From contig NZ_FQVJ01000030.1 of NCBI RefSeq assembly GCF_900129125.1, forward strand, positions 1-44,370: a stretch of DNA of 44,370 bases. The letters are read 5' to 3'. The notes beneath the pieces were generated by a model that worked only from the letters and a program-made list of their open reading frames with translations, searched no databases and was not told where the DNA came from. Positions 2,761 to 31,534 of the stretch are shown piece by piece. This DNA is from Acidocella aminolytica 101 = DSM 11237. Its GTDB lineage: Bacteria > Pseudomonadota > Alphaproteobacteria > Acetobacterales > Acetobacteraceae. The translations under genes and the position numbers were made by a program. How positions within the stretch are numbered: position 1 is the stretch's first letter; each line of letters starts with the position of its first letter.

Positions 2761-4605
2761 TCATCTCGAAACCAAAAGGCGGCATGCTCCGGAATCATCA
2801 CCAATGACTTCCCCAAACTTCGTTATCGGCGCGGGCCTCCCAATTAAATATCCCTGCAACAGAGAACACCCCGCCGTCCGAAGAATTGTCGCTTGCTCCT
2901 CGGTTTCCACTCCTTCAGCGACCACTGAAACGTTCAACGCGCGGCCCAGCCCCAAGACAGCCATCACGATCGCCTCTGCTTCACCGAGCCGACCGAGATC
3001 ACTTACGAAAGATCGGTCGAGTTTAATTTTGTCGAAAGGGAACATTCGCAGCGTTGCCAGCGATGAGTAACCAGTTCCGAAATCGTCAATGGATATCTTA
3101 ACTCCCAACGCCTTAATGCGTGCGAGTACGTTGGTCGCCGCATGGACATCGGATAACAAGAGCGACTCAGTCACCTCAAGTTCGAGCCGCTCGGGCTCGA
3201 GCCCACTTTCGGCTATTGCTGCGGCGACCAAGTCAGGAAGCCCGCCATCCTGGATCTGAATAGCAGAGATGTTTACAGCAACTCTCAGCTTTTTCGCCCA
3301 ACCGGCCGCTTCGCGGCAGACCTCGCGTAGTACAAAGGTCCCAATCTCGATTATACTGCCTGTTTCCTCGGCAATTGGGATGAATACTGCAGGCGACACC
3401 TCGTCCCCGCTCCTTCTCCAACGTACCAGCGCCTCAAAGCCTACAATACGGTCAGAGGAGATTTCGAATAGAGGTTGGTAATGCACAGCCATTTCCCCTC
3501 GTTCGCAAGCACCGCGTAAATCGGCCTCCATCCGTCTGCGGTTGAGCTGTGTATCATTGATATCAGCGTTGAATACCGCGAAGTCATTACGTCCGGAAGA
3601 CTTAACTTGGTAGAGCGCCATATCAGCATGCGACAGTAGCAATTCGGCAGTAGCTCCGTGATCTGGTGCCAACGCGATACCGATTGAAATCGAGCCAGCC
3701 AGTGTATGGCTCTCGGTTTCAGCCAGTCGATTCCTCACTGCGCCAAGAAGGCGCCCGGCCAGCGCACAGGCGTCCCCTACATCATCCACGTTTGCCTGCA
3801 GGACGACAAATTCGTCACCGCCGATGCGAGCTATCAGGTCGTTTGCTCGAGCTTCCTGCTTCAAGCAATTAGCTAGGTCTATAAGCAGGCGATCACCTAC
3901 CGCATGGCCAAGCAAATCATTAACACTTTTGAAACGATCAACATCAATGATGTGAATAGCAAATTTATTACCTTGACGACGGCTAATTTCGAGCGAAACC
4001 TCGATTAGTTCATTTAAACGTCTACGGTTGGCGAGGCCAGTCAGAGCGTCGTGATCGGCGAGATAGCGGATTCGTTCATTGGCGCGGCGGCGATCCGAGA
4101 TATCTTGGGTAATCACGAGGTACCCAGAAATGTCTTCCTCATCGCGCAGAGCGGCAACTTCGGTGCGAAACCAAGAATTGCCATTTTCTTCCGGCCATTC
4201 AAGCGCACCGCCATTACCCTGAAAGAGTTCGGCGACAGCCTGACGGTAGCCAATAGCCACGCGATCGACAAACCACTTGGTCCCGTACATCGATGCAGCA
4301 CTAACATCCGGCAAATGACGCATACGACCGATGGGTACTACTTCCTCATGAGGCAGGAGCAATTGCCACGCAGAAAGTCCGGCGATCCTCTGGACCTCAT
4401 CTAGCGCACCGGCATAAGCGTGGCTACGCTCGACTCCGCGTTGTGCAGTTTCGAGCATGAAATTCGTCAGCAGCGTCAATTTTTGGACAGTTAGATCTGT
4501 ACTCTCTGTCTTTAACCGAACAGAGAGATCCCCTGTAACAACGCCGCACATCGATTGGCAAAGCTCCTCGATCGCAACGCGGTCAACCTGTTCCATATTA
4601 TCCAT
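2761..4605 (-). CDS. GGDEF-EAL enzyme, H-NOX-associated (HaCE-like)
   Basis: This 614-residue cytoplasmic protein makes and/or degrades cyclic-di-GMP. An N-terminal helical region and a PAS-like segment (roughly residues 75-175, ending ITQDISDRRRANERIRYLA) precede a GGDEF domain and an EAL domain. The GGDEF domain reads RIGGDEFVVL, and an RAND sequence five residues upstream fits the inhibitory I-site RxxD. The EAL domain has FEALVRW, LEVTES, IDDFGTGYSSL, KLDRSFV and VVAEGVET, so the catalytic residues of both domains look intact. The start codon is five bases after the H-NOX stop, so the pair is an operon. This matches the known H-NOX-associated cyclic-di-GMP enzymes (HaCE), in which NO-loaded H-NOX shifts the balance of synthesis and hydrolysis. 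Which activity dominates cannot be read from sequence. Confidence 0.9.
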   Translation of the reverse strand: MDNMEQVDRVAIEELCQSMCGVVTGDLSVRLKTESTDLTVQKLTLLTNFMLETAQRGVERSHAYAGALDEVQRIAGLSAWQLLLPHEEVVPIGRMRHLPDVSAASMYGTKWFVDRVAIGYRQAVAELFQGNGGALEWPEENGNSWFRTEVAALRDEEDISGYLVITQDISDRRRANERIRYLADHDALTGLANRRRLNELIEVSLEISRRQGNKFAIHIIDVDRFKSVNDLLGHAVGDRLLIDLANCLKQEARANDLIARIGGDEFVVLQANVDDVGDACALAGRLLGAVRNRLAETESHTLAGSISIGIALAPDHGATAELLLSHADMALYQVKSSGRNDFAVFNADINDTQLNRRRMEADLRGACERGEMAVHYQPLFEISSDRIVGFEALVRWRRSGDEVSPAVFIPIAEETGSIIEIGTFVLREVCREAAGWAKKLRVAVNISAIQIQDGGLPDLVAAAIAESGLEPERLELEVTESLLLSDVHAATNVLARIKALGVKISIDDFGTGYSSLATLRMFPFDKIKLDRSFVSDLGRLGEAEAIVMAVLGLGRALNVSVVAEGVETEEQATILRTAGCSLLQGYLIGRPAPITKFGEVIGDDSGACRLLVSR

Positions 4606-23666: not shown

Positions 23667-24593
23667 TCATGAGCGTGACAGCTTGCGATAACTGGAGGGT
23701 GTCATTCCGCGCACTTCGCGGAAGGCACGGTTGAAATTAGACAGATTTTTATATCCAACCTCGCTGCAGATCTCGGTAACGGGCAGATTTGTCTGGGCCA
23801 GCAATTCGCATGCTTTGGCGGTTCGAAGCACGGCCAAATGGCGAGTGAAGGTATTCCCGGTCTTATCTTTAAAGAAACGAGAAAACGAAGATTCAGTCAT
23901 CCCGGCAATGTCTGCGAGGATGGAGAGGCGCAAGTCCTGCCCAAGGCTGCTCGACAAGTAGCGGAAGACCTCGTCTAGGGTGCTGCTGGATTTTCCGTCC
24001 AGCTTGGGGGCAAAGCCAGCCGAAGACAATAGAATATATTCTTTTGTGTGAGACAGAAGATGCAGGAGATCCAACAGTTTCGCTAATTTTTGAAGGCCGC
24101 AGCTTGTTCCGATCGCCTCCATCATAACGGCCCCAGCTTGCCGTGCCGCACCTTGGAAGATCATCCCACGCCGAGCTTCCGTCAACAGCCGGCCCAATTG
24201 TGACATTTCAGGCATTACAGAGCTAGCTGATTTCAGGCGATCCCCGTCGAATTGCAGGACGACATCGCGACCTTTGATCACCTGCCCGTTGCTCAGCGGG
24301 GTCACCCAGTTGTGTGGCAACTCCGCTCCGATGAAGAACAAATCACCGGGAGAAAAACGTCCGATATGGTCACCAACATAGCAAGAGCCCTCCGCATTGC
24401 GGATCAGATGCACCTCGCATTCCTTGTGAGTGTTCCAGACAGCCCGCGAAAGCGGATAGTCATCACAGCGCCAAACAAATGATTCCGATGGGAGCGGCAC
24501 GATGGGCTCCGTGACAGGCGGACTTGGTTTCCATTGCGTGAATGTCATCGTGGTAGCGGGCAAAAGGTTCAGAAGGTGATCGCGAAGTACCAT
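23667..24593 (-). CDS. AraC-family regulator, probably of polyol genes
   Basis: The product is up to 308 residues: an N-terminal cupin-like sensor domain (ECEVHLIRNAEGSCYVGDHIG and FSPGDLFFIGAELPHNW) and a C-terminal double helix-turn-helix. The latter reads LSILADIAGMTESSFSRFFKDK and ICSEVGYKNLSNFNRAFREV. It shares strand with the sorbitol dehydrogenase 600 bases downstream and is its likely regulator. ATG 24593 lacks a good ribosome-binding site; ATG 24548 is an alternative start. Confidence 0.82.
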   Translation of the reverse strand: MVLRDHLLNLLPATTMTFTQWKPSPPVTEPIVPLPSESFVWRCDDYPLSRAVWNTHKECEVHLIRNAEGSCYVGDHIGRFSPGDLFFIGAELPHNWVTPLSNGQVIKGRDVVLQFDGDRLKSASSVMPEMSQLGRLLTEARRGMIFQGAARQAGAVMMEAIGTSCGLQKLAKLLDLLHLLSHTKEYILLSSAGFAPKLDGKSSSTLDEVFRYLSSSLGQDLRLSILADIAGMTESSFSRFFKDKTGNTFTRHLAVLRTAKACELLAQTNLPVTEICSEVGYKNLSNFNRAFREVRGMTPSSYRKLSRS

Positions 24594-25151: not shown

Positions 25152-26180
25152 CTATCCAAATGCCCTGACCGGATCCTCAATTGCAATGCCAACCTGCTGC
25201 CCCACTCGAAGGAGAAGCGGTCCACTAACCCTTGCAATGAGGTCCAGGTCTGACATCCGAAGACTTATCGAGGCGTCATGACCATAATAATCAATTGCAG
25301 TTACCGTAGCAGGAAGCGACGTCCCTTCAGAGCACGGATCAATGCGAATCTGCTCGGGGCGTATCAGCACTTCCCCTGAACCAGCAGGAAGTTCGGAGCT
25401 GAGAGCCAACTGGCCCAGTGCGCAGTCCACACTTCGGCCCTGAATTAATCCGGGGATCAGGTTAGTCTCTCCCAGAAAGCGGGCCACGGCCGCGTTTTTT
25501 GGTTTGTTGTAAAGTGTTGCGGGCGTTGCAACTTGGGCAAGATTGCCGTCCAACAACACGGCGACTTCGTCGCTGAGCGACAGTGCCTCTGCCTGATCAT
25601 GGGTCACCAAAATTGCTGTCGCTTTAGCCAGCCGCAGTGCCTCGAGTATCGCCTTTCGGGTTTCCGCCCTCAACCCGGCATCCAATGCCGAAAACGGTTC
25701 GTCGAGCAGCACGAGTTGCGGCTGCGGGGCCAAGGCACGGGCGAGCGCCACCCGCTGCTGCTCACCGCCGGAGAGCTGGTACGGCGCTCGATCGGCATAG
25801 GCTTGTGGTAGTCCAACGAGATCGAGCAGTTCGTTGGCGCGGATACCCCGACGGCGTTCGGTGCGCGACAGTCCGAAGACGATGTTCTCACGCACGGATA
25901 GATGCGGGAAGAGCGCGCCATCCTGCGCGACGTAGCCGACGCGCCTGCGTTCAGGTGCCATGTGCAGGCCGGGCCGCGCCACAACCTCGTCGCCGATGCG
26001 GATTGTACCGGCGTCACAGCGTTCGAAACCGCAGATGAGCCGTAGCAGCGTCGTCTTCCCGCTGCCGGATGGGCCGAGCACCGCGAGCAGATGCGCGGGC
26101 GACACCGTTAGGTCGATCGCGTGCAGGATGGTTCGGTTACCAAATGTCTTTTTGAGGTTGCTGACAGTGAGGTCAATCAT
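25152..26180 (-). CDS. fbpC: Ferric-iron ABC transporter, ATP-binding protein
   Basis: The 342-residue ATPase has Walker A GPSGSGKTTLLR, the signature LSGGEQQRVALARAL, Walker B LVLLDEPFSALD and the switch His in LVTHDQ. A C-terminal regulatory TOBE-like extension follows. It energises iron import at the cytoplasmic face of the inner membrane. It starts four bases after the permease stop, so it is the last gene of fbpA-fbpB-fbpC. Assignment to ferric iron rests on the binding protein and permease type. Confidence 0.9.
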   Translation of the reverse strand: MIDLTVSNLKKTFGNRTILHAIDLTVSPAHLLAVLGPSGSGKTTLLRLICGFERCDAGTIRIGDEVVARPGLHMAPERRRVGYVAQDGALFPHLSVRENIVFGLSRTERRRGIRANELLDLVGLPQAYADRAPYQLSGGEQQRVALARALAPQPQLVLLDEPFSALDAGLRAETRKAILEALRLAKATAILVTHDQAEALSLSDEVAVLLDGNLAQVATPATLYNKPKNAAVARFLGETNLIPGLIQGRSVDCALGQLALSSELPAGSGEVLIRPEQIRIDPCSEGTSLPATVTAIDYYGHDASISLRMSDLDLIARVSGPLLLRVGQQVGIAIEDPVRAFG

Positions 26181-26184
26181 GGGT

Positions 26185-27789
26185 TCATGCCACGGGTGCT
26201 GTGCGGTCAGATATCTGGCTTGGTTGGTGGGACTGTGCCGGGTCGCCGACGCGGCTTTGCCCGAACTGTCGGGCGAGCAACCAACTGGCTGTCAAGGAGA
26301 GTGCCATCATGATGGCAGCGTATGGGGCCGCTGCGGCAAAGGCGAGGGTCGAGGTGTCCGCCCAGACCTGCGTCGCTAGGGTCTGGGTGCCAATCGGAGC
26401 GAGCAGCAAGGTTGCGGTCAGTTCCGTTACCACCGCGATGAAGACCATCGCTGCCGCTGCCCCGAGACCAGGCCCGGCCAGCGGCAGCATGACGCGATAT
26501 GCGACCTGGAAGACGTTCAAGCCCAATGAGCGCGCCGCCTCCTCCAGCCCCAGTTGCGCGTGGGCGAGTGCCGCCCGCACACCAACGACGGCAAGGGAAA
26601 GAAACTGGATGCCATAGACCAGGATCAGCAGCGCTGAACTCTGATAGAGCGGATGGAGGTAATGCACGGTGAGGAAGACCATGGCGAGGGCGATGACGAT
26701 CCCCGGCATCCCCTGCGTCAGGTAGCTCGTGCGCTCCACCAGCGTTACCGTCCGCCCGCGATAGCGCGTCGCCAGGAAGCCGATCGGAATCGCCAGCACC
26801 ATCGCGATCAGTGTGCCGCCAAGACCGTAACCGAGCGAGGACAGCGTCGCCGCCGTCAGCAAGGCCGGCGATACTTCGGCTGGCGTGATCGCGGCGGCAC
26901 CGTGCTGGGTCATCCAGTAGAGCGTGGTGATGAGCGGCATACCAGTCGTGACAACCACCAGCGCCGCCAGGAGGGCGACCACAACCCATTTAATTTGCCC
27001 CAGCTCATGGAGAGAGGCAGGCCGGCGGACGCCACGACCGATCCGGCCGTAGCGCGCGCTGCCGCGGATACGCAGCTCCGCCATCAGACAGAACAGACAC
27101 AGCACGATGAGGATGCTCGCCAGCAGCGAGCCGGTAGCGCCATCGAAGCTGGCCCTGTACTCGATATAGATTTCGGTCGTGAAGGTACGAAAGCGCAGCA
27201 GGGCGAAGGCCCCGAACTCGGTTAGGACGTTGAGCGCGACGAGCAACGTGCCACCCAGGAGTGCAGGATGCAGTTGTGGTAGCACGACACGGACGAAGCA
27301 CACGACCGGCCCGCAGCCAAGCGCGCGGGCCGAATCCTCAAGCGCCGGGTCGAGATTACGCAATGAAGCGGCGACGGGGAGATAGAGTAGCGGGTAATAG
27401 GCGCAGGTCACCACCAGCACGGCCCCGGCGAAACCTTCCAGCGCCGGGCTGATCGATATCCACGCATAGCTGGTAATGAAGGAGGGAATGGCTAGCGGCA
27501 CGGCAAGGAGCACGGCCCATGCCTGCCGCCCCGGTAGCCGGGTGCGCTCGACAAACCAAGCCGCCCCCGTGCCGACGACGATTGCCAGCGCGGAGGATAC
27601 TGCCGTCAGGCATACCGTATTGAGCAAAAGCGTGCCGACCAGCGGGCGTAGGAGGAAGTGTGCGGCCTGCCCTCCGCTCACCTCTGTCGCCCGCAGGATC
27701 GTCAGTCCGATTGGCAGGAGTACCAGGAACGCGCCAACCGCTGCCGCGCCGAGGAGCAGAAGGGGCGGTCGCGCGTTTGCCCACCGCAT
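26185..27789 (-). CDS. fbpB: Ferric-iron ABC transporter, fused permease
   Basis: This 534-residue inner-membrane protein has about twelve hydrophobic segments in two homologous halves, as in FbpB/SfuB-type permeases. Each half carries an EAA loop: EDSARALGCGPVVCFVRVVLP and EEAARSLGLNVFQVAYRVMLP. The start codon overlaps the last base of the fbpA stop, so translation is coupled. It should carry ferric iron (or another small cargo delivered by FbpA) into the cytoplasm. Confidence 0.88.
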   Translation of the reverse strand: MRWANARPPLLLLGAAAVGAFLVLLPIGLTILRATEVSGGQAAHFLLRPLVGTLLLNTVCLTAVSSALAIVVGTGAAWFVERTRLPGRQAWAVLLAVPLAIPSFITSYAWISISPALEGFAGAVLVVTCAYYPLLYLPVAASLRNLDPALEDSARALGCGPVVCFVRVVLPQLHPALLGGTLLVALNVLTEFGAFALLRFRTFTTEIYIEYRASFDGATGSLLASILIVLCLFCLMAELRIRGSARYGRIGRGVRRPASLHELGQIKWVVVALLAALVVVTTGMPLITTLYWMTQHGAAAITPAEVSPALLTAATLSSLGYGLGGTLIAMVLAIPIGFLATRYRGRTVTLVERTSYLTQGMPGIVIALAMVFLTVHYLHPLYQSSALLILVYGIQFLSLAVVGVRAALAHAQLGLEEAARSLGLNVFQVAYRVMLPLAGPGLGAAAAMVFIAVVTELTATLLLAPIGTQTLATQVWADTSTLAFAAAAPYAAIMMALSLTASWLLARQFGQSRVGDPAQSHQPSQISDRTAPVA

Positions 27790-28829
27790 TAAAGAAGGCC
27801 GGCTTCGTGAAGCAGCGTCACGACTGACGCGTCGTCGCCGAGTTGTGAAACGGAGATAGCAGGCGGCTGAAGCTCGTTGAAGGGCTTCAGCACCGGGTTC
27901 GGGGCGATGCCTGGGCGCAACGGGTATTCAAACGTGACCGGCGTGTCGGCCAGCATCTTCTGTGCCGGAGCGCTGACAAGGAAGGCGAGGAAGCGCTGCG
28001 CGTCCTTCGGGTCCTTGCTCGTCTTCAGTACGCCGGCGCCAGAGATGTTGATCAGGCCGCCGACGTCGCCATGACTGAAGTGATAGATATCGCTATGTGT
28101 CTTTGCCTTGCCCAGTTCCTGCTGCAGGCGTGCCCAGTAGTAATTGTTGATGATGCCGGTGGCCACGGCACCGCGGTTGACAGCGGCGACGACGCCCTCG
28201 TCATCGTCATAGATCTTTGCGTTTGCTTTGAGTCCCTTGAGCCAGGCTAGTGCGGCGGCCTTGCCGTGCGTTACGACGACGGCGTTGACCAGCGGCAGGA
28301 AGTCGTTGTCGCTGGGCGCGATCGCGATCTTCCCCTTCCATTTCGGCTTCGCAAGGTCCATCAGGGATGCCGGAAGCGCAGAGGCGGCGATCATCGACGG
28401 ATTGTAGGCGAGCACGTTCTCACGGGCGAGAACGCCGACCCAGGTGCCGTCCGGCGCGTTGTACTTGGAGGGGATCTCGGCAAGGGTCGACGGATCCACC
28501 TTAGCAAGCAGCCCCTTCTCCGCCAGCATCGCGATCTCGGGAGAGTTCTCGGTAAAGAACACGTCGGCCGGCGAGGCTGTGCCTTCCTGGATAATCTGGG
28601 CGGCAACCTCTGGCCCGTCACCGGAATGCACTTTAACGCCGATTCCGGTCTTCTTCTCGAAAGCCGAGACGAGCATGTTCACCGTCTGCTCGTGTTGCCC
28701 ACTGTAGAGCACCAGCGTGGCGGCGACGGCTGGGTGCGGCGTGCAGGCGAGAAGCCCGCAGGCGGCAAGGGCTGCTACTCCCAGGCCAGCAAAATTCGAC
28801 CGCGACCAGCGGTGTTCGAGCAACGACAT
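27789..28829 (-). CDS. fbpA: Ferric-iron-binding periplasmic protein
   Basis: From ATG 28829, with GGGAG upstream, the product is 346 residues. The N-terminus has a hydrophobic leader ending in LLAC then TPHPAVAA, so it is exported either as a lipoprotein or as a cleaved periplasmic protein. The mature start LVLYSGQHEQTVNMLVSAFEKKTG and the tandem tyrosines in IINNYYWARLQQE match ferric-binding proteins that hold iron through adjacent Tyr residues. It heads the fbpABC operon and faces two Fur-box-like sites. Confidence 0.88.
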   Translation of the reverse strand: MSLLEHRWSRSNFAGLGVAALAACGLLACTPHPAVAATLVLYSGQHEQTVNMLVSAFEKKTGIGVKVHSGDGPEVAAQIIQEGTASPADVFFTENSPEIAMLAEKGLLAKVDPSTLAEIPSKYNAPDGTWVGVLARENVLAYNPSMIAASALPASLMDLAKPKWKGKIAIAPSDNDFLPLVNAVVVTHGKAAALAWLKGLKANAKIYDDDEGVVAAVNRGAVATGIINNYYWARLQQELGKAKTHSDIYHFSHGDVGGLINISGAGVLKTSKDPKDAQRFLAFLVSAPAQKMLADTPVTFEYPLRPGIAPNPVLKPFNELQPPAISVSQLGDDASVVTLLHEAGLL

Positions 28830-28877
28830 CAGGCATCTCCCAGGCAAATTGGTAAAACGTATGAGCCCACTCATACT

Positions 28878-28892
28878 TGCGAATAAGTCTCA
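28878..28892 (-). promoter_or_regulatory. Fur-box-like site near fbpA
   Basis: On the minus strand TGAGACTTATTCGCA fits the 7-1-7 Fur shape, with five of seven half-site pairs symmetric. It lies 49-63 bases upstream of the fbpA start. Confidence 0.5.
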
Positions 28893-28936
28893 TTATAATC
28901 CATAAGCTCATGTTTTCCGTCGGTCAATGGGTTGCA

Positions 28937-28955
28937 AATGAGAGTCGTTCTCAAT
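28937..28955 (+). promoter_or_regulatory. Fur-box-like site in the divergent promoter region
   Basis: The 19-base sequence AATGAGAGTCGTTCTCAAT is a near-palindrome with TGAGA/TCTCA arms, close to the Fur 7-1-7 pattern. It lies about 40 bases upstream of the propeller-protein start and could silence both divergent transcripts when iron is plentiful. Confidence 0.6.
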
Positions 28956-28995
28956 AATTGCTACTGGCAGATGTTCAACTGGAGGACCACAGGCA

Positions 28996-30135
28996 ATGAG
29001 AGATGAGAACAACGGACGGCGATGGGCTTGGGCTGGTTTGGCCCTGGTAGCGACCATGCTGGTACCAGCGACGGCACTCGCCGATGGGAAGGGGGGCGAG
29101 TTCCTCTCGAATACCCGGCATCACGTGACACTGGGCTCCATGGTGCCGGCGAACGGCGACCAGAACCCCTATGCAATCGTCGTCGCACCGGTCTCGGCCG
29201 GCAAGGTCCAGAAGGGTGACGTGCTTGTCACGAACTTCAACGACTCGAAGAATCTCCAGGGGCTTGGCACGACGATCATGGACTACAGTCCGGCCACTAA
29301 GAAAGTCTCGGTTTTCGCCAAGATCGATCGCAAGCTCGCAGGCTGTCCGGGGGGCGTCGGTCTGACCACCGCCATGACGATGCTCAAGTCCGGCTGGGTC
29401 ATCGTCGGCAGCTTGCCAAGCCAGGATGGGACTACAGCGACGAAGGGGCCCGGCTGCCTGATCGTTCTGAATTCCCATGGGGCAGTTTCCGGTACGATCA
29501 GCGGTCCCAACATCAATGGGCCATGGGGGAACATCGCCACGGTTGATGACGGCAAACATGCCACGCTCTTCGTGAGCAATGTCGGCTTCGGCGTCGGTGC
29601 CCCCACGGATAACAGTCCGGTCGTCAAGAAAGCGACCGTACTGCGCCTCTCGCTGGATATCCCACCGGGCAAACCGCCGGTTGTCACCAATCAAATGGTC
29701 ATCGCCGATGGCTTCGGTGAACAGGCCGACAAGAGCGTCTTCATCATCGGTCCAACCGGCTTGGCCTTGGGTAAGAACGGTGACCTCTTTGTCTCCGACG
29801 CGCTTGGCAACCGCATCGCCGCTATCCCAGATGCTCTGACCCGTACCTCAAGCGATGGTACCGGCACCACAGTGACCTCGGGCGGATTTCTGCAGCGGCC
29901 GCTCGCGCTAACAATGACGCCGGGGGGGCATCTCCTAACCACCAATGGTCTAAACGGCCAAGTCGTCGAGATTGATCCAACGACCGGAAAGCAACTCGCT
30001 GCGCAATGGATCGACGCTGACGAGGCTCAGCAGCCGCCAGGCAGCGGCGACCTCTTCGGCATCACGCTGACGCCCGACGGACATGGCTTCTACTACGTAG
30101 AGGACGACATGAACACGCTGATGCTGGCGAACTGA
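28996..30135 (+). CDS. Secreted NHL-type beta-propeller protein, iron locus
   Basis: The 379-residue product has a signal peptide (WAWAGLALVATMLVPATALA, cleavage near residue 29) and repeated blade-like units: KGDVLVTNFNDSKNLQGLG, GPTGLALGKNGDLFVSDALG, PLALTMTPGGHLLTTNGLNG and LFGITLTPDGHGFYYVEDD. This suggests an NHL or SMP-30-like propeller in the periplasm. GGAGG nine bases before the ATG supports the start. It is followed 16 bases later by the DyP peroxidase gene and lies divergent from fbpABC, so it probably works in iron or heme handling. No catalytic residues could be assigned. Confidence 0.8.
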   Translation: MRDENNGRRWAWAGLALVATMLVPATALADGKGGEFLSNTRHHVTLGSMVPANGDQNPYAIVVAPVSAGKVQKGDVLVTNFNDSKNLQGLGTTIMDYSPATKKVSVFAKIDRKLAGCPGGVGLTTAMTMLKSGWVIVGSLPSQDGTTATKGPGCLIVLNSHGAVSGTISGPNINGPWGNIATVDDGKHATLFVSNVGFGVGAPTDNSPVVKKATVLRLSLDIPPGKPPVVTNQMVIADGFGEQADKSVFIIGPTGLALGKNGDLFVSDALGNRIAAIPDALTRTSSDGTGTTVTSGGFLQRPLALTMTPGGHLLTTNGLNGQVVEIDPTTGKQLAAQWIDADEAQQPPGSGDLFGITLTPDGHGFYYVEDDMNTLMLAN

Positions 30136-30151
30136 GACGGGAGTGACGATC

Positions 30152-31534
30152 ATGTCCAGATGTCCGTTTTCAACACGGCGCGGCTTTCTCGGAGCGTCCG
30201 GCGGCGCGCTGGCGGCCCCCCTGCTCACGAAGGCTGGCAAGGCGGCGGTGCCTGGTATGACCGCCGCCCCTGCCAGTGATATGTCCGACGGTGGGGCCAT
30301 CCCGTTTTTCGGCAAGCACCAGGCCGGGATCGCGACGCCCCAACAGACTCATCTTGTGTTCGCGAGTTTTGACATCATCGCCCAGAGCCAGTCGGACTTG
30401 GTCCGATTGCTGCAAGATTGGACGCAGGCGGCGGCTATTATGGCTGCCGGCGACCTTGTGGAGCCGGCAGACGGCAACGCGTCCAAACCGCCAACCGATA
30501 GCGGTACTGTACGCGGGCTTGGCCCTGGGCGCCTGACACTGACATTTGGTTTCGGCCCAGGGCTTTTCGAAAAGGATGGAAAGGACCGCTACGGCTTGGC
30601 TGCGAAACGGCCCGCCGCGCTCGTCGACTTGCCGCGCTTCAATGGCGACCAGCTTGAGCCGGCGTACACCGGCGGTGATCTCTGCATCCAGGCTTGTGCA
30701 GATGACAGCGCGGTCGCGTTCCACGCCATCCGTCAACTTGCCCATATGGCCGCTCCAAACGACGCGGCGGATGGCTATGGTGGCAAAAAAGCGGGCGCCA
30801 CCCTCGCCTACAATGCCAAGCCGGGTGTCGCCACACTGCGGTGGTTGCAGACGGGGTTCCTGCCAGATTATCCGGCCGGGGAAACGCCGCGCAATCTGTT
30901 CGGCTTTAAGGACGGCACTGAGAACCCGGGGCGCCCCGATCCGGCCGAAATAAGCCACGGGAAAACCATCGGTAACGGCTCCCTAGGTGAAGCAGTATGG
31001 GTCGGGAATGAGGGGCCGGTTTGGATGCAGGGCGGCAGTTATCTCGTCGTTCGCCGTATCCGAATGGCTCTGCAGCATTGGGACAACACCGCGCTTGACT
31101 TCCAGGAGAGCATATTCGGCCGGAAAAAGGTGAGCGGCGGGCCGCTGACTGGTGGCGGAGAATTCACCCCCCTCAATCTCGACGCCACCGATGCCGACGG
31201 CAATCCGGTGATTGCTGAGAATTCGCACGTACGGCTCGGTGCCGCTTCGACGAATGACGGTGCGCGGATTTTGCGCCGTGCTTATTCTTACAACGACGGC
31301 CTCAAGATGATCGCCGAACGTTGGCCGCCCTGGAGGCAGGGCCTCGAATACGAGGCTGGGCTGATCTTCGTCGCTTTCCAACGTGATCCTAGAACCGGGT
31401 TCATCAAGATCTTCGACAGAATGTCGAAATTCGACATGATGAACCAGTTCACAACGCATACGGGCAGCGCGATTTTTGCTTGCCCGAGCGGCATCGCAAA
31501 GGGCGGGTTCATCGGAGCGGACCTCTTCACCTGA
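30152..31534 (+). CDS. efeB: Tat-exported DyP-type heme peroxidase, EfeB-like
   Basis: The 460-residue protein begins MSRCPFSTRRGFLGASGG, a twin-arginine signal (RRGFLG), so it should be exported folded with heme. The DyP signature is GFKDGTENPGRPDP with the catalytic Asp; the proximal heme His is in ENSHVRLGAAS, and RRIRMALQHWD holds the distal Arg. Length and motifs fit the EfeB/YwbN class A family, which oxidises ferrous iron or releases iron from heme. ATG 30152 is preferred over the GTG at 30143, given GGGAG just upstream. EfeU and EfeO are absent here; the partner importer is likely FbpABC. Confidence 0.9.
   Translation: MSRCPFSTRRGFLGASGGALAAPLLTKAGKAAVPGMTAAPASDMSDGGAIPFFGKHQAGIATPQQTHLVFASFDIIAQSQSDLVRLLQDWTQAAAIMAAGDLVEPADGNASKPPTDSGTVRGLGPGRLTLTFGFGPGLFEKDGKDRYGLAAKRPAALVDLPRFNGDQLEPAYTGGDLCIQACADDSAVAFHAIRQLAHMAAPNDAADGYGGKKAGATLAYNAKPGVATLRWLQTGFLPDYPAGETPRNLFGFKDGTENPGRPDPAEISHGKTIGNGSLGEAVWVGNEGPVWMQGGSYLVVRRIRMALQHWDNTALDFQESIFGRKKVSGGPLTGGGEFTPLNLDATDADGNPVIAENSHVRLGAASTNDGARILRRAYSYNDGLKMIAERWPPWRQGLEYEAGLIFVAFQRDPRTGFIKIFDRMSKFDMMNQFTTHTGSAIFACPSGIAKGGFIGADLFT

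Follow-up and report, generated by a model that had tools for sequence, protein, structure and literature searches.

A putative Fur-controlled iron-acquisition gene set built on an OprB-family porin, an NHL-type beta-propeller and an EfeB-type peroxidase, usually with FbpABC, in Acidocella aminolytica and other bacteria

We analyzed a divergent locus with candidate functions in iron acquisition on contig NZ_FQVJ01000030.1 of Acidocella aminolytica 101 = DSM 11237 (assembly GCF_900129125.1); the whole stretch of 44,370 nucleotides is called the window here. On the minus strand lie genes for an FbpABC-type ATP-binding cassette (ABC) importer, in the order fbpC–fbpB–fbpA, with the fused permease and the ATPase recognized together in one cluster by their open reading frames and Pfam domains. 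Across a 121-bp gap, the genes for a secreted beta-propeller protein and an EfeB/DyP-type peroxidase follow on the plus strand (Table 1). All five genes had been named, with their strands, in a preliminary description of this DNA, and each was confirmed in place and supported by Pfam.

Table 1. Features of the iron locus in the window. TGAGAATNATTCTCA is a tuned 15-base Fur-box consensus (TGAGAAT form) and TGATAATNATTATCA its untuned, E. coli-type form.
Feature	Position	Strand	Basis
FbpC-like ABC ATPase	25152..26180	-	Open reading frame; PF00005 (ABC_tran) and TOBE_2
FbpB-like fused two-domain permease	26185..27789	-	Open reading frame; PF00528 (BPD_transp_1), two stretches
FbpA-like periplasmic ferric-binding protein	27789..28874	-	SBP_bac families (Pfam); closest solved protein HitA (6iwf), E 1.2e-79
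Fur-like box 1, fbpA side	28878..28892		12/14 to TGAGAATNATTCTCA, 10/14 to TGATAATNATTATCA
Fur-like box 2, propeller side, ~43 bases 5' of the propeller ATG	28939..28953		12/14 to TGAGAATNATTCTCA, 10/14 to TGATAATNATTATCA
Secreted NHL-type beta-propeller, 379 amino acids, read as six-bladed	28996..30135	+	PF01436; AlphaFold2; Foldseek
Tat-exported EfeB/DyP-type heme peroxidase, propeller-linked lineage	30143..31534	+	PF04261/PF20628 (Dyp_perox_N/C)
Codons of the module-specific 10-residue insertion	31307..31336	+	EfeB residues 389–398, MIAERWPPWR

A scan of public genome contigs for the propeller gave 202 stretches that encode a relative, and the best 80 of the 202 were kept as the set of loci compared below (L, G and C numbers are our handles for loci, genomes and contigs; G000 is the window's own genome). 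EfeB was the next gene after the propeller, on the same strand, in 76/80 loci; three were cut by a contig end, and the one exception by tblastn was L048. At this locus, the only uncut one of its kind, the propeller is followed by an open reading frame (3536-4495) that carries a Tat-like signal but matches no Pfam family. An OprB-family porin gene adjoined in 78 of the 80 loci, 77 times upstream and once downstream of EfeB, and was not seen in L012 and L020. The family assignment was made with PF04966, which scored above its cut-off both in L078 (336 bits) and for the copy on contig C15 of the window genome (271.5 bits). FbpB was codirectional in 64 loci (61 downstream, 3 upstream), all of which had FbpA, FbpB and FbpC in that order; it was cut off in six and absent from the stretch in ten, with short flanks in some of the latter (less than 5 kb after the propeller in L053 and L065). 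In 36 of 89 propeller–EfeB pairs, two of the 89 repeating a contig, the two reading frames share 4 bases. The stable core of the module is thus OprB porin–propeller–EfeB, with FbpABC as the usual yet replaceable importer. The linkage anticipated in the preliminary description, of the propeller family with EfeB and FbpABC, therefore held in relatives, where the three are indeed neighbors in most loci; FbpABC proved to be a usual rather than a fixed member, and the porin had been overlooked.

Beyond the Burkholderiaceae, the module was carried by records of Chitinibacteraceae, Pseudomonas, Acidocella, Acetobacteraceae, Beijerinckiaceae and Azospirillaceae. It was also found on metagenome-assembled contigs labelled Oligoflexia, Verrucomicrobiales and Solirubrobacterales, for which misbinning is possible. 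One of these, L006 (CAJCJG010000225.1, labelled Solirubrobacterales), has all six module genes in a proteobacterial-like form and is possibly misbinned. Two gene orders were observed: FbpABC precedes the other genes in Acidocella, L006 and L021 and follows them in the beta- and gamma-proteobacterial loci. The order of six genes is present at L014 and L080, the loci of Andreprevotia chitinilytica DSM 18519 and Silvimonas terrae DSM 18233. On the Paraburkholderia plasmid AP028202.1, the genes are annotated as carbohydrate porin, hypothetical protein, efeB, iron ABC binding protein, permease and ATPase. We found no description of the porin–propeller–EfeB–FbpABC set among the titles, opening parts of abstracts and passages of the full-text literature, a body that mostly leaves out subscription journals.

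The genus and the class were surveyed with 38 Acidocella genomes and a draw of 385 genomes, respectively. In the genus, DyP was found in 12/38 genomes (13 genes) and the propeller in 10/38, in all ten beside a DyP. Of the three remaining DyPs, that of G408 has the module signature, on a contig that starts just before the DyP and continues with OprB, and those of G417 and G415 (its second) are of other kinds. Seven congeners have FbpA–FbpB–FbpC–propeller–EfeB on one strand, with OprB directly after in five; G004 is cut by the contig end and G397 has no OprB in the stretch. The divergent layout was seen in the window only, with FbpABC turned round and OprB missing from the locus. In the class draw, six of the 385 genomes, including that of the window, had the propeller (E <= 1e-40), and the module is accordingly patchy. 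DyP was found in 19 genomes of the draw; all six propeller genomes had RWPPW in their DyP, and the remaining 13 loci lacked it. A distant propeller relative (35%) in G367:C15 (L128:6465-7463) has no EfeB, OprB or Fbp neighbor by tblastn within 14 kb. In G057:C105:47-1182 (L129), the propeller was matched in two pieces, one with an internal TAG, and the EfeB of this genome, which has ERWPPW, reaches the edge of another contig.

A close OprB orthologue of the window genome (65% to that of L031) lies alone at G000:C15:31546-32799 (L104:5532-6812), surrounded by unrelated genes. In trees, the window's propeller and FbpB fell outside the Acidocella clades (100/99 and 100/100), and the C15 porin grouped within the clade of Acidocella porins (95/99), adjacent to those of G001 and G008; no propeller, DyP or FbpA was found in these two genomes, which are 85% and 80% complete. 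Because of these placements, this strain probably carries a foreign propeller–EfeB–FbpABC set beside a native porin, as judged from the propeller, FbpB and porin trees, the EfeB tree giving no placement of the window. Two further OprB matches in this genome, G000:C68:10-1053 and C103:10-1053, have equal scores and coordinates and lie at contig starts, perhaps owing to a duplication or an assembly repeat.

The propeller protein matched the NHL family with 26.2 bits over the whole protein (cut-off 20), with no single stretch passing alone. The AlphaFold2 model, built with 25 relatives, was fairly confident (predicted local distance difference test, pLDDT, 81.3; predicted template modelling score 0.83), and its strand list is read as six blades. 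The best Foldseek matches were mostly NHL and designed propellers, with streptogramin B lyase (2qc5) fifth and the lactonases 8djf and 2dg0 lower; the template modelling (TM) score on the query was at most 0.57 among the matches listed. Both the NHL match and the fold place the protein with the NHL-type propellers, a type it has in common with ScyD/ScyE and the NHL-repeat propellers, from which it differs in reaching only 24 bits to ScyE_fam, below that family's cut-off of 80. Invariant residues were crowded where the blades enter the inner strand, where 25 of the 97 invariant positions fell in 48 of the 344 residues (p 1e-4), as expected for a functional central face.

The closest solved relatives of FbpA are ferric-binding proteins, with HitA first, followed by SfuA, YfuA and others. 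When the module FbpAs were aligned to HitA, the positions H61, E109, Y245 and Y246, which we take to be the ferric-ion ligands, were kept in 72, 70, 72 and 72 of 72 proteins, respectively, and the window's binding protein is predicted to have the H, E, Y, Y set of FbpABC systems. The window EfeB has a twin-arginine signal, and its best matches among solved structures are deferrochelatases. An RRx[FLVMI] motif was present near the start in 89/89 EfeBs (two of which repeat a contig), and D235, H329 and R347 (E. coli numbering), presumably the heme and catalytic residues of the active site, were kept in 87/87 module EfeBs. Like the peroxidase of EfeUOB, the protein would thus be a Tat-exported DyP with an intact heme site.

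In a tree with some long outgroup branches, the module EfeBs formed a group that excluded E. coli EfeB and three EfeUOB-type EfeBs; its support, 94/99, fell slightly short of the level taken as firm. They also share a 10-residue insertion, with the consensus FYIERWPPWR, that fills an alignment gap of the EfeUOB-type EfeBs. The motif ERWPPW was found in 87/87 module EfeBs, as well as in L112, L113 and L142, the propeller of which has been cut off or lies on a different contig. It was absent from E. coli EfeB and the three EfeUOB-type EfeBs, and also from the DyP of G417, the second DyP of G415 and the remaining DyP loci outside the module that were examined in the class, and the five solved EfeB relatives with alignments shown have a gap at this position. 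By these sequence comparisons, the module EfeBs are a lineage of their own, separate from E. coli-type EfeB. A structure model of EfeB (pLDDT 57.7) was too poor to place the insertion and was not used.

EfeB was expected from the preliminary description to lack both of its usual companions here, the permease EfeU and the binding protein EfeO. For EfeO, this proved correct: no Peptidase_M75 (PF09375) match was found in the 99%-complete window genome, and an E. coli EfeO query gave no match in 93 module loci, as against 3/3 EfeUOB control loci from the same class, which have DyP genes without a propeller and with FTR1 and EfeO. For EfeU, it was not, as the genome has one EfeU/FTR1-type permease, on another contig, between cupredoxin and P19 genes. 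With a single DyP, no M75 match and FTR1 sitting with cupredoxin and P19, a full EfeUOB elsewhere in the genome, which would have spoken against the preliminary description, was rejected. FTR1 was also considered as the stand-in importer where FbpABC is missing, and rejected, since the genome's own FTR1 query had no match in any of the 80 loci, so that EfeU was not found in an operon with EfeB. Mutual exclusion of propeller and FTR1 was likewise rejected for the genus: FTR1 was over the cut-off in 13/38 genomes, including two of the ten with a propeller (G000 and G399).

The gap between fbpA and the propeller gene contains two Fur-like boxes, in agreement with the preliminary description, and these are the sole sites reaching 12/14 to TGAGAATNATTCTCA in the whole window. 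With the E. coli 19-base consensus, scores were weak at several loci, including the window genome's lone porin. Of 88 regions lying 5' of the first module gene, 72 held a site of at least 12/14 to TGAGAATNATTCTCA; the frequency elsewhere in the loci would predict 0.11 sites. Removing L124 (12/14, a duplicate of L079), L006 (10/14), L021 (7/14) and the genome's own C15 porin (11/14) left 84 regions, mostly from Burkholderiaceae. Among these, 71 had a site of at least 12/14 to the tuned form, whereas 98 shuffled palindromic consensuses averaged 0.11 such regions and never exceeded 6. With the untuned form at a threshold of at least 11/14, the count was 41 regions, against an average of 2.2 and at most 18 for 97 shuffled consensuses. 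Outside Burkholderiaceae, a strong box was present in 17/29 regions, or 17/25 without the Pseudomonas loci L027, L029, L035 and L038 (each 10/14). A Fur-type palindrome in the promoter region is thus a property of the family of loci, the window itself having the scores of Table 1, and the gene set is probably iron-controlled via a Fur-type regulator. Scans of the divergent gap found no sigma-70-like promoters or terminators. Box 1 lies only 4 bases from the annotated start of fbpA; from the position of this box and the signal peptide, the true start is probably the ATG at 28829.

Taken as a whole, we favor, with some confidence, the reading that the locus is one iron-repressed, Fur-type and siderophore-independent iron-acquisition cassette, in which the propeller takes the place of EfeO and FbpABC usually that of EfeU. 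The OprB-family porin, encoded elsewhere in this genome and in the cluster in most relatives, would admit small iron complexes or ferrous iron to the periplasm. Such an entry has a precedent in Synechocystis, an organism that also possesses the Fut system for taking up iron: its OprB-domain porin Slr1908 is reported to be important for iron uptake (PMC8707739). In the periplasm, Tat-exported EfeB would either oxidise ferrous iron or free iron from heme or another complex. Both roles, iron release from heme and iron oxidation, have been proposed for EfeB, and its iron role and the purpose of EfeO are called unclear in the accessible parts of two papers (PMC9174327, PMC3577903). The propeller would act as EfeB's periplasmic partner, in the position that EfeO holds in EfeUOB. 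A precedent for such a partner is that Staphylococcus aureus FepB alone did not support growth of E. coli on hemoglobin and did so with the EfeO-type partner FepA, as described in excerpts of the second of these papers (PMC3577903). Finally, in most loci, FbpA would bind the resulting ferric iron and FbpBC would import it, so that FbpABC may carry the iron handled by EfeB.

A more specific form of this proposal is that the module is a second EfeB uptake architecture, in which the propeller is a non-homologous replacement of EfeO that docks on the ERWPPW loop, iron is handed to FbpA and FbpBC, and a dedicated OprB iron porin provides entry, together replacing EfeO, EfeU and any TonB-dependent receptor. 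We put this forward tentatively, as a possibility that we would not yet bet on.

A number of observations weigh against the cassette interpretation. The tuned form of the box was picked after the scores with the E. coli 19-base consensus had been viewed, and by the untuned TGATAATNATTATCA, the window sites 6280 and 25279, the latter inside fbpC, reach 11/14 and beat the boxes of the gap. Thirteen of the 84 upstream regions have no strong box (L007, L008, L010, L013, L014, L019, L027, L029, L035, L038, L065, L114 and L127), among them all five Pseudomonas and both Beijerinckiaceae loci. The porin of the window genome is unlinked to the locus, with an upstream site of only 11/14, and OprB porins are, by family name, carbohydrate porins. 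The window EfeB scores 398.6 bits to TIGR01412, in two stretches, below the cut-off of 428. As to the importer, FbpABC is absent from ten of the 80 stretches, and Acidocella G399 (L122), which has propeller–EfeB and, elsewhere, an FTR1 permease, gave no match to FbpA at E 1e-10, so that FbpABC need not be present. The module is accompanied in some lineages by a lone cupredoxin (PF13473), which adjoins OprB–propeller–EfeB with no FbpABC seen at L076:3887-4246, L125:6956-7303 and L079:8329-8652 (the same as L124), and occurs at L048:379-732 and L129:2893-3135, where FbpABC may be cut off. In G346, FbpA is on another contig than OprB–propeller–EfeB, and in G420, FbpA is on another contig and the propeller at a contig end. 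From the cupredoxin loci and these three genomes, the importer seems to be exchangeable around a constant OprB–propeller–EfeB. Finally, E. coli EfeB alone gave partial growth in the study cited above (PMC3577903), which means that not every EfeB strictly depends on a partner.

One alternative is that only Fur control is shared: EfeB and the propeller would be a periplasmic defence against peroxide or heme stress under iron starvation, and FbpABC an ordinary ferric importer of the same regulon, with no substrate passed between them. The retention of propeller–EfeB in the ten stretches without FbpABC and in G399 fits this account, as do the divergent order of the window and the separate contigs of G346. 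FbpABC is, however, codirectional and close in 64/80 loci, and since it is so in two different orders, the association must have survived or re-formed through rearrangements; moreover, a porin in the core suggests uptake rather than defence. We therefore regard this alternative as unlikely, though it is the strongest of the competitors to the cassette.

A second alternative concerns the propeller, which could be a lyase-like or SMP-30/lactonase-like enzyme, opening or removing an organic iron chelator that enters via OprB, with EfeB acting on the aromatic part of the chelator and FbpABC importing the freed iron. The crowding of invariant residues at the blade entry to the inner strand would suit an active site of this kind, and the lyase and lactonases do appear, next to NHL domains, among the Foldseek matches. 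Most of the top matches are nevertheless NHL domains and designed propellers, with the TM-scores given above, and we consider an enzyme of this type quite improbable. That the ABC importer serves a non-iron substrate of phosphonate or thiamine type, its pairing with EfeB being incidental, is hardly credible, as the best partial NCBIfam matches of the binding protein, although to 2-aminoethylphosphonate transporters, are far under the cut-offs (73 vs. 310 bits), its closest solved relatives bind ferric iron and the H, E, Y and Y positions are kept.

If the cassette interpretation is correct, the module stands between several known systems. Like EfeUOB, FepABC and YwbLMN, it is a periplasmic iron system, probably under Fur control, with a Tat-exported DyP deferrochelatase/peroxidase of EfeB type; it differs from them in that no EfeO or EfeU was found in it, in having the propeller, usually FbpABC and OprB in the cluster, and in the ERWPPW lineage of its EfeB. 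Its importer has the same three components as FbpABC, HitABC, SfuABC and FutABC, and the same predicted ferric-ligand positions in FbpA, and differs by its linkage to EfeB, propeller and porin. The FtrABCD and FetMP systems (P19–cupredoxin–FTR1) couple periplasmic iron oxidation to uptake, as proposed here for the module, and at some module loci there is a cupredoxin that shares its Pfam family with theirs. P19 and FTR1 were not found, however, in the 80 loci or in 18 further stretches by tblastn with the window genome's own P19 and FTR1, which form a separate cupredoxin–FTR1–P19 operon there. Slr1908 and Fut resemble the module as an OprB-domain porin for iron in an organism with an Fbp-type importer; the cyanobacterial porins have SLH domains, and one operon with EfeB or a propeller is not described in the available portions of that work (PMC8707739).

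An EfeB lineage with another periplasmic partner, and usually another importer, would be a natural experiment on the roles of EfeB and EfeO. ERWPPW offers a sequence signature that sorts the two EfeB lineages and would predict which partner each EfeB needs. In proteobacteria, an OprB-type porin emerges from the set as a candidate route for iron across the outer membrane. The set also gives a candidate role to the propeller, a "hypothetical protein" in the annotated record AP028202.1, and suggests an unreported siderophore-free route of iron uptake.

Next to the locus, an AraC-family regulator gene (23667-24593, minus strand) adjoins fbpC.

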